Part shown: positions 49,977 to 56,230 of the stretch, piece after piece
How the letters are laid out: every line of letters starts with the position of its first letter
How positions within the stretch are numbered: position 1 is the stretch's first letter
NCBI GenBank assembly: GCA_002719675.1
Contig: PBID01000003.1
Span: forward strand, 117,948-181,947
Reading direction: 5' to 3'
Origin: Chloroflexota bacterium
GTDB taxonomy: Bacteria > Chloroflexota > Dehalococcoidia > Lucifugimonadales > GCA-2719675
DNA length: 64,000 bases
Notes under the pieces: generated by a model
Database searches by the model: none
Told to the model about the DNA's origin: nothing
What the model saw: only the letters and a program-made list of their open reading frames with translations
Made by a program: the position numbers and the translations under genes

Positions 49977-50330
49977 GGGGACGCGTGGATTCGACAGGAG
50001 GATCTTGTACTGGATTGCAAGTCGAGGACCATCTACCTCGTAAAAAGATGGAAAAACTTAAACGGCAACTCACAAGAAGTAGCCCTAGCCGCTTAAATAG
50101 CAGCTACGTTCATCTGTTTCTCTCCTCGAAGGAATAGAATGAGCGCCGTAAATCGAGGCGCTGTCTAGTTGATGTCAATTGGACTAGGCTTAAGACTTTA
50201 TTGACTGGCTGTCACGTACAACTTCGCTGGGAGGTGTGGTGATAGTGAGACTGAAATCCAGATAAGCTTGTAGCATATCTTGATGCAAGACCTTTTGGAC
50301 GGGGAGTTCGACTCTCCCCCGTCTCCACCA
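49977..50330 (+). ncRNA. ssrA: Transfer-messenger RNA (tmRNA)
   Basis: The 354-base RNA has the one-piece tmRNA plan. The 5' end GGGGACG pairs with CGTCTCC at the 3' end to form the acceptor stem, followed by a discriminator A and an encoded CCA. The T-arm has a GGGAG/CTCCC stem and the loop TTCGACT. The tag frame runs from GGC (50064) to TAA (50094-50096) and encodes GNSQEVALAA, ending in the usual ALAA proteolysis signal. The resume codon appears to be Gly, not the common Ala. An extended -10 element (TG, one base, TAGAAT, 49952-49960) lies just upstream. Confidence 0.96.
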
Positions 50331-54273: not shown

Positions 54274-54285
54274 AATTGTAATTTG

Positions 54286-55167
54286 ATGGTTAATAATTTT
54301 AAGAACTTTTTTTCATTTGGCAGTTTAATGTTATTGATTAAAGGGTTTGCTATTGGATCAGCAAATATAATCCCAGGCTTATCAGGGGGAACAATTGCCT
54401 TTGTGACGGGGATTTATGAAAGATTATTGTTGTCCATCAATTTACTTTATAGTCGAAAAGTTTTAAGTATGGCATTTCGGCTTCGATTTAAGGAGTTATT
54501 TGATGCTATTGATATTAAATTTTTATTTTTGATTTTAGTCGGGACTTTGGGAGGGATTTTTTTAACAGCAAAATATATAGAGCTGTTATTAGAAAAATTC
54601 CCTTTATTATTTTTTTCTTTTTTGTTTGGGTTAATGTTGGGGGCGGCTTTACTTCTTGGGAAAGAAGAAAAAGTTTGGGATAGGGAAACTTTTTTTCATT
54701 TGATAGCCGGCTGTTTCTTAGGGTTTGCTTTAACTATAGTATTTCCTGAAATTCAATCAGAAAGTATGTTTTTGGTTTTGGGAAGCGGGATTCTTGTTGC
54801 TGGTGCTATGATTTTGCCAGGAATTTCAGGGAGTTATATTTTACTAATTACAGGAAATTATGAAAGAATGATTTCTGCGATAAACATATTTGATTTAGAG
54901 GTTTTATCAATTTTTGCCCTAGGGTTTGTTGGGGGCATTATATTATTTGCCAGGATTATTAAGCGCTTTATTGAACAATCTAGAAAAAAAACATTTTCTT
55001 TACTTGTTGGCGTTGTATTAGGATCATTGAAGAGCCTTTGGCCTGGTTATGTTATTCCTGATATTGTATTGGGCAGCAATGATATATTGGCAATGTCAAT
55101 TTTGATTCTTGGGGGCTTTGTTGTTGCTTTGGGAATCCCCTTAGTTGCCAGTATTACTAAGAAATAA
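54286..55167 (+). CDS. DUF368-family membrane protein (possible undecaprenyl-phosphate translocase)
   Basis: This 293-residue polytopic membrane protein has the DUF368 signature: IGSANIIPGLSGGTIAFVTG near the N-terminus and its inverted counterpart GAMILPGISGSYILLITG in the second half. These reflect an internal inverted repeat. Some DUF368 proteins have been shown to flip undecaprenyl phosphate for reuse in envelope synthesis; that role here is by family analogy. ATG 54286 is preferred over TTG 54283, though neither has a clear ribosome-binding site. A structured RNA candidate follows. Confidence 0.88.
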   Translation: MVNNFKNFFSFGSLMLLIKGFAIGSANIIPGLSGGTIAFVTGIYERLLLSINLLYSRKVLSMAFRLRFKELFDAIDIKFLFLILVGTLGGIFLTAKYIELLLEKFPLLFFSFLFGLMLGAALLLGKEEKVWDRETFFHLIAGCFLGFALTIVFPEIQSESMFLVLGSGILVAGAMILPGISGSYILLITGNYERMISAINIFDLEVLSIFALGFVGGIILFARIIKRFIEQSRKKTFSLLVGVVLGSLKSLWPGYVIPDIVLGSNDILAMSILILGGFVVALGIPLVASITKK

Positions 55168-55373
55168 GGGTAAACTAATGTGCGAGACTGGCCGACCCTG
55201 CTCTATAAGGTACTGATTAAGGTTGTTTTGTCCATCAGTCCCTTAAGAGGGGCTGTCTGGGAATATTACTTCTCCTGACAAACGTGCTTTGGGGCCCCAT
55301 AGACTCTTGGGTTGAGCGGTCTGTACGAGTAATAAATACTCGGCAGGGCGGCCGTCGCTATATCAGTTTACCT
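55168..55373 (+). ncRNA. Unidentified structured RNA candidate
   Basis: About 205 bases directly after the DUF368 gene are GC-rich against an AT-rich genome and fold into a closed multi-branch structure. The ends pair: GGTAAACT (55169-55176) with AGTTTACC (55365-55372), GCGA (55182) with TCGC (55355), GGCCG (55190) with CGGCC (55349), and CCCTG (55196) with CAGGG (55344). Inside are four hairpins: 55201-55250 (CTCT/AGAG, TAAGG/CCTTA, ACTGAT/ATCAGT), 55248-55298 (GGGGC/GCCCC, TGTC/GACA), about 55302-55324 (AGAC/GTCT), and 55326-55342 (CGAGTA/TACTCG). No open frame fits. I saw no RNase P, SRP, tmRNA or riboswitch signature. 6S RNA is the closest alternative but not supported by a clear central bubble. 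Confidence 0.65.
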
Positions 55374-55407
55374 CGTGCCATACATTAATTTCAAAATTTG
55401 TCCTCTT

Positions 55408-55478
55408 TTGTGCCATTTTATGTGGCACAATATAAATTATGTGGGTATAATTGTTTTGGCACATATTTTTTTGTGCCA
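55408..55478 (+). promoter_or_regulatory. Promoter bracketed by two TGTGCCA inverted repeats (probable operators)
   Basis: A perfect TATAAT (55446-55451) lies between two inverted repeats of the same 7-base word. The upstream one is TTGTGCCA-N7-TGGCACAA (55408-55430), covering the -35 region. The downstream one is TGGCACA-N8-TGTGCCA (55457-55478), starting at the expected transcription start. A fifth half-site, CGTGCCAT, lies at 55374-55381. The layout fits repression by a dimeric regulator. The controlled gene is the DUF5343-like gene at 55535, which would have a leader of about 77 bases. Confidence 0.7.
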
Positions 55479-55534
55479 TTTAACAAAAGTGGCTTGGTTA
55501 CTTTAGAAATACAAGGTTTTTGAGGGACTAAATT

Positions 55535-56230
55535 ATGGAAACACCGCCATATATTTCTTTCAACACATTTAAAACTTTACTTTATTGGCTTGAAAAAGAA
55601 GGGGTGCCCCTAAGAATTGATAGATCTTTTTGGAAGGAAAAATTTAGTGGCGCAAATGGAAGTAAATTAATGGGAGCCCTAAGGTTTTTGGGCTTACTAG
55701 ATGGAGATAAACCGACTAAAGAATTAGAGATTTTAGTAAATTCCAGCTTGGGAGATGAAAGAAGTCAAATATTTGTTAATATTTTAACAAAGTCTTATAG
55801 AAACATTCCTTTTGAAGAGTTAGCTAGAGCTACACCAAACATGATAAAGGAGTGGTTCAGAGTTTATCCTATTGATGGACATACCTTAAGAAAAGCTACA
55901 ACTTTTTTTATAAATGCAGCCAGAGAAGCCCAGATTCCAATGTCAAATTCAATAATTAAAATGACAAAATCTAGACGAATTAATTCACAACAACAAATCA
56001 AAAGTCTTAATGCAGCCTCCGAAGAAATTGCGACTATCAATAAGAGAATCCCGGCTGTTAATAAGCTTCAAGACGGTGAAACATTAAGGAATAGTACGAC
56101 AATTCCTTTGTCAAACGGAGGTACAGTTGTGGTTGATGTTGCGGTGAATCTGTTTAGCCTTTCGGAAGAGGACAGGTCTTTTGTTTTTTCTATAGTTGAT
56201 TTAGCAAAAAGCTACACGTCTTCCAAATAA
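55535..56230 (+). CDS. DUF5343-like protein
   Basis: This 231-residue protein resembles the DUF5343 family: the N-terminus METPPYISFNTFKTLLYWLE, a winged-helix-like region through FWKEKFSGANGSKLMGALRF, and a C-terminal strand-helix unit with LSNGGTVVVDVAVNLFSLSE. It has no membrane segment. The family function is not known to me. Its N-terminal half could bind DNA, and its own promoter carries paired inverted repeats, so autoregulation is a reasonable hypothesis. ATG 55535 is preceded by a weak GAGGGA element. Confidence 0.6.
   Translation: METPPYISFNTFKTLLYWLEKEGVPLRIDRSFWKEKFSGANGSKLMGALRFLGLLDGDKPTKELEILVNSSLGDERSQIFVNILTKSYRNIPFEELARATPNMIKEWFRVYPIDGHTLRKATTFFINAAREAQIPMSNSIIKMTKSRRINSQQQIKSLNAASEEIATINKRIPAVNKLQDGETLRNSTTIPLSNGGTVVVDVAVNLFSLSEEDRSFVFSIVDLAKSYTSSK

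Follow-up and report, generated by a model that had tools for sequence, protein, structure and literature searches.

A candidate regulator-linked small RNA encoded divergently from a DUF5343-like gene in SAR202 Chloroflexota

Regulator-linked small RNAs and the SAR202 locus

Small RNAs of the RsaE and LhrC types in Firmicutes carry a C-rich seed, UCCC, and OxyS pairs with fhlA via two sites, forming a kissing complex. The OxyS-fhlA interaction is covered in PMC2946933, and OxyR-OxyS, GcvA-GcvB, and SgrR-SgrS are enterobacterial pairs in which the small RNA (sRNA) is divergent from the adjacent regulator gene (PMC4423775). The SAR202 locus described here resembles these three pairs in two ways: an RNA gene and the gene for a putative regulator are read in opposite directions from a single short control region, and accessible parts of the RNA are complementary to the leader of an mRNA. 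Unlike them, it is found in a Chloroflexota host, its RNA is unrelated in sequence, the complementarity is very long, no terminator is recognized, and the partner is a DUF5343-like protein whose role as a regulator is putative. A conserved single-stranded C-rich stretch between hairpins is shared with RsaE and LhrC, but the motif is CCCCAAAGC instead of UCCC, there is no homology, and pairing with ribosome-binding sites is a feature of the RsaE and LhrC types. The RNA is also comparable to 6S, tmRNA, RNase P, and SRP RNA as a structured, stand-alone bacterial RNA but differs from them in having no Rfam match.

SAR202 bacteria, most of them uncultured, are abundant deep-ocean organisms, and an open-access literature search with partial coverage turned up no publication on their small RNAs. 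The GC-rich segment analyzed here is a genuine structured RNA, and it is strongly conserved. It most likely represents a new RNA family with a mechanism of a known kind, that of a regulator-linked sRNA. Judged from the sequence, with a probability of roughly 0.6, it would be a stand-alone sRNA of ~180 nucleotides (nt), encoded on the minus strand divergently from the DUF5343-like gene and acting in trans on a dehydratase-like mRNA. The locus lies in a window (the whole stretch of DNA analyzed, 64,000 nt) and has the following features:

54283-55167: DUF368/undecaprenyl-phosphate-translocase-like (PopT-like) gene, preceding the GC-rich segment
55168-55373: GC-rich segment, in the intergenic region that follows the DUF368/PopT-like stop codon and precedes the 231-amino-acid (231-aa) gene
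55365..55394, minus strand: divergent RNA promoter from a consensus scan, with -35 TTGAAA (55394-55389), an 18-nt spacer containing TGGCAC, and -10 TAAACT (55370-55365)
55410..55451, plus strand: putative operator palindrome, TTGTGCCA...TGGCACAA, overlapping the -35 box of the TGGCAC-17-TATAAT promoter
55535..56230, plus strand: 231-aa DUF5343-like gene, the constant neighbor of the RNA and a candidate regulator

Structure, strand, and promoter of the RNA

An earlier sequence-only reading had described the segment as noncoding and much richer in GC than its surroundings, and both descriptions hold. No open reading frame of at least 60 aa occurs between the DUF368/PopT-like stop (55167) and position 55535, where the 231-aa gene begins, and GC content is ~0.45 to 0.465 in 200-bp windows of the segment versus roughly 0.29 to 0.37 in the flanks (0.51 for 55180-55375). 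The plus strand folds with a minimum free energy (MFE) of -86.3 kcal/mol (z score of -4.3), which none of 200 shuffles equaled. The long end-to-end helix with four hairpins proposed in that reading is present in this plus-strand fold, but its outermost pairs, GUAAACU/AGUUUAC, have lost their 5' side in the sister genome G001 (locus L002), and their 3' half (AGUUUAC) coincides with the divergent promoter's -10 box. Minus-strand folding gives z scores of -5.7 to -5.9 (-5.66 for the RNA at 55180..55358). When relatives from three further SAR202 families (loci L067, L068, and L069) are included, folding energy gives a mixed strand signal: the RNAs of the window, L002, and L068 favor plus, and those of L067 and L069 favor minus.

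Among Rfam 15 covariance models, only tmRNA exceeded its gathering threshold in the window, and permissive E values on both strands of the locus, the sister locus, and two relatives yielded chance-type matches only. The previous exclusion of RNase P, SRP RNA, tmRNA, and known riboswitches is borne out by this lack of a match, by the strong conservation, and by the presence of the RNase P and SRP RNAs elsewhere in the genome, on contig C16. The 6S family, named as the first to test, finds no support; the Rfam 6S model gave no match, and the fold is multibranched. The tmRNA gene lies at 49977-50330 (tag GNSQEVALAA), and an ARAGORN call of tRNA-Thr inside its 3' part is probably spurious.

The RNA is very probably transcribed from the minus strand, rather than from the plus strand implied previously, since the promoter, the predicted start site, and the complementary target all point there. 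No Rho-independent terminator was recognized at its 3' end in a scan of the locus. The predicted parts of the minus-strand RNA, from its 5' end, are as follows:

55180..55358, minus strand: RNA, with a predicted 5' end at 55358 (base 1 of the closing helix) and a 3' end at or somewhat past 55180
55343..55358, minus strand: 5' strand of closing helix P1, pairing with 55182-55199 in the MFE and centroid folds; P1 is kept in L002
55326..55342, minus strand: hairpin HP-I (CGAGUAUUUAUUACUCG), in the MFE and centroid folds
55303..55317, minus strand: hairpin HP-II (GCUCAACCCAAGAGU), whose loop belongs to pairing block C
55299..55326, minus strand: pairing block C, complementary to a leader that precedes a threonine/serine-dehydratase-like gene
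55286..55294, minus strand: single-stranded linker CCCCAAAGC (unpaired probability of 0.87), common to the other families (CCCC(C)AA.., +62 to +70)
55268..55287, minus strand: pairing block B (GCACGUUUGUCAGGAGAAGU), with complementarity to the dehydratase-like leader given for block C
55249..55298, minus strand: hairpin HP-III with an outer GGGGC/GCCCC stem, from folding
55206..55246, minus strand: extra hairpin A, present only in members of the GCA-2719675 genus
55182..55199, minus strand: 3' strand of closing helix P1, in the MFE and centroid folds

The minus-strand control block consists of GGAC, TTGAAA, 17 to 18 nt, and TAAACT, TAAAAT, or TAATTT, and the spacer holds a TGGCA(C/T) half-site at a near-constant position. 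This layout is repeated in most of 30 loci, usually with a spacer of 17 to 18 nt. About 7 bases past the -10 box lies base 1 of the closing helix in the GCA-2719675 genus; in L067, L068, and L069, a 5' hairpin starts at this point. By sequence, the RNA has a conserved promoter and start position of its own, and its transcription is predicted. As a general pattern, the stretch 55389-55451 of the window, like 30 related loci (L065-L098), carries GGAC-N5-TTGAAA-17/18-(T/G)ANAAT, and the block is kept across families with its spacer half-site and the palindrome over the opposite -35 box, the half-site shifting from TGGCAC to TTTGGAAC.

Conservation of the RNA, its neighbor, and the control region

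In the sister genome, the RNA occupies the same place, and 55180-55358 matches at 169 of 176 aligned positions (96% identity), with 5 gapped, in a within-genus comparison that comprises the window genome (G000) and one other, closely related genome (G001). The coding sequences of the neighbors match at 521 of 761 positions (68%) for the DUF368 gene and at 589 of 696 for the 231-aa gene. The noncoding segment is more conserved than both flanking genes and is therefore very likely under selection. A covariance model built from the two genus members, searched against 250 genomes of the order, matched those two alone.

Homologues of the 231-aa protein led to the relatives in three further SAR202 families (L067, L068, and L069; 46 to 50% identity). 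There, the region upstream of the homologue, divergent to gyrA, contains the same control block together with a hairpin of high GC content and a motif of the CUUUGGGG type (read on the plus strand). From the predicted start, these relatives form HP-I and HP-II, followed by a single-stranded CCCC(C)AA linker and then HP-III, with the MFE structure close to the centroid, and all five RNAs have the linker at +62 to +70. A sequence profile from L067, L068, and L069 alone gave a single match in the 64-kb window with both strands searched, to the minus-strand RNA and its promoter (E = 5e-4, a score that includes the promoter contribution). The match is colinear through the linker, and the sister genome was matched likewise. 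When HP-I of the three relatives is aligned by start, pairs 5 (C-G/U-A/U-A) and 6 (A-U/G-C/G-C) show two-sided changes, and pair 3 (G-U/G-C/G-U) alternates on one side; covariation support is thin because the diverse relatives number just three.

The sequence-only reading had placed the RNA after a DUF368 gene, but the gene that always accompanies it is the divergent DUF5343-like one, in two gene contexts, adjacent to gyrA or not. Protein and RNA genes diverge from a shared control region in all four families, a layout like that of regulator-sRNA pairs with the protein as the putative regulator. The 231-aa protein scores 14.0 bits against Pfam DUF5343 (PF17278; E = 0.062), under the gathering score of 27. 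Its structure model is poor (pLDDT of 48), and a fold search with that model as the query gave no match. Its plus-strand promoter, TGGCAC-17-TATAAT, is conserved and of good form in a consensus scan, in agreement with the earlier view that a separate downstream promoter argues against the RNA being the leader of the next gene. The putative operator palindrome is conserved in L002 and similar in L067-L069. Additional TTTTGTGCCA/TGGCACA copies occur downstream of the -10 box of the 231-aa gene (55450-55490), with one more in the sister genome, and two more GTGCCA/TGGCAC sites lie directly upstream of gyrA in genome G003 (L067, ~2620-2665), where the DUF5343-like regulator might act on gyrA.

The RNA appears, from the sequences compared, to span four families of one order and was not seen outside that order in the class sample. 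A class-level protein search recovered three more distant homologues of the 231-aa protein with no RNA seen upstream. Family f28, a sister family, retains the control block alongside more distant homologues and shows no such RNA, and the promoter layout of the RNA-bearing families precedes a ParB-like gene in both f28 loci tested. That f28 gene, divergent from the DUF5343-like gene at the place of the RNA elsewhere, matches HTH_ParB with E values of 4e-10 and 8e-9 (L070:2076-3062 and L071:459-1322). Among gyrA upstream regions of other families, the RNA was found solely where the DUF5343-like gene co-occurs, and phage and plasmid collections gave no match to it. Searches of viral and genome collections with the pattern CTTGGGTTGAGCNGTCTG returned, besides the sister genome, chance-like matches lacking the second block, and matches at L137 and L004 were rejected as both lie inside coding sequence.

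Complementarity to a dehydratase leader and competing explanations

In both G000 and G001, the stretch between a gene for a 323/324-aa protein and a threonine/serine-dehydratase-like (PALP) gene resembles two parts of the plus strand of the segment and is thus complementary to the minus-strand RNA. The two genes are co-oriented, which would place the complementary stretch within their mRNA if they are cotranscribed, and it ends roughly 25 to 30 nt before the dehydratase start codon. The 323/324-aa protein (L005:528-1499 and L007:1572-2546, minus strand) occurs upstream of the dehydratase gene in both genus members, has no Pfam family, and has one weak match only elsewhere.

The complementarity comprises two blocks, of about 24 to 27 and 18 to 19 bp, in both genus members. 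Pairing energies are -37.9 (G000) and -43.6 (G001) kcal/mol for block C and -31.2 (G000) and -28.8 (G001) kcal/mol for block B. When 12,794 stretches of 30 nt from the window were scanned, the mean was -13.8 (standard deviation of 4.3) and the best unrelated stretch reached -31.6, against -40.2 (block C) and -37.0 for the two blocks; full-length prediction had yielded unrealistic end-to-end duplexes, and 30-nt windows were used instead. Accessibility of the pairing blocks is 0.63 to 0.66 versus an RNA average of 0.42, except for the GGAGA end of block B, which is paired. As computed, the RNA has an accessible region whose complementarity to an mRNA leader exceeds chance and is conserved in two close genomes. 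Blocks C and B are close together in both genomes and have the same 5'-3' order on the RNA and the leader, so a single continuous duplex cannot form and the contacts would be separate, of a kissing type or with two RNA copies. No target was identified in the other three families.

The same resemblance was initially taken as a permuted paralogue on the plus strand, a lead dropped for the antisense reading and retained as a rival. In that case a plus-strand structured RNA would have a shorter, order-swapped relative in the dehydratase leader, perhaps as a common protein- or ligand-binding motif. The more stable plus-strand fold in the GCA-2719675 genus and the ability of hairpin C to form in L005 as well are consistent with this explanation, which is nevertheless unlikely: the plus side has no conserved promoter (DUF368 coding sequence precedes it in one case and the gyrA upstream region in others), a plus-strand transcript would enter the operator, the leader folds no better than shuffles (z scores of +1.25 and +1.10), and the profile from the other families matches the minus strand with its promoter. 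Slightly less probable still is a minus-strand stand-alone RNA bound by a protein, e.g., its DUF5343-like partner, with the leader complementarity as a duplication relic. Constant linkage to the 231-aa gene, the lack of a target in three families, and the noncontiguous order of the complementary blocks would fit such an RNA, but both blocks are kept in the two genomes, are largely accessible, and pair at -29 to -44 kcal/mol. A role in cis, as a leader or attenuator, is highly improbable, as the RNA is oriented toward gyrA in L067-L069 but gyrA lies elsewhere in the GCA-2719675 genus (L112 and L114) with no codirectional gene after the RNA, gyrA upstream regions checked in other families lack it, and the 231-aa gene is served by a promoter of its own and by a control block that f28 keeps without the RNA.

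Under the preferred reading of a trans-acting minus-strand sRNA, the DUF5343-like protein would bind the TGTGCCA/TGGCACA sites of the shared control region and control both its own gene and the divergent RNA of ~180 nt. The two blocks of the RNA would then base-pair with the leader just upstream of the PALP gene, and pairing may change translation or stability of the dehydratase mRNA, in either direction. A more specific version is tentative: in part of SAR202, the RNA may have replaced an f28-type ParB-like gene under the same promoter and may regulate the dehydratase mRNA through two long, same-order contacts of the kissing type. The locus would also offer an example of a single control region that serves a protein gene in one family and an RNA in related families. 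This candidate sRNA, for which a target and a neighbor protein are named and a start base is predicted, provides a directly testable entry to RNA regulation in SAR202.
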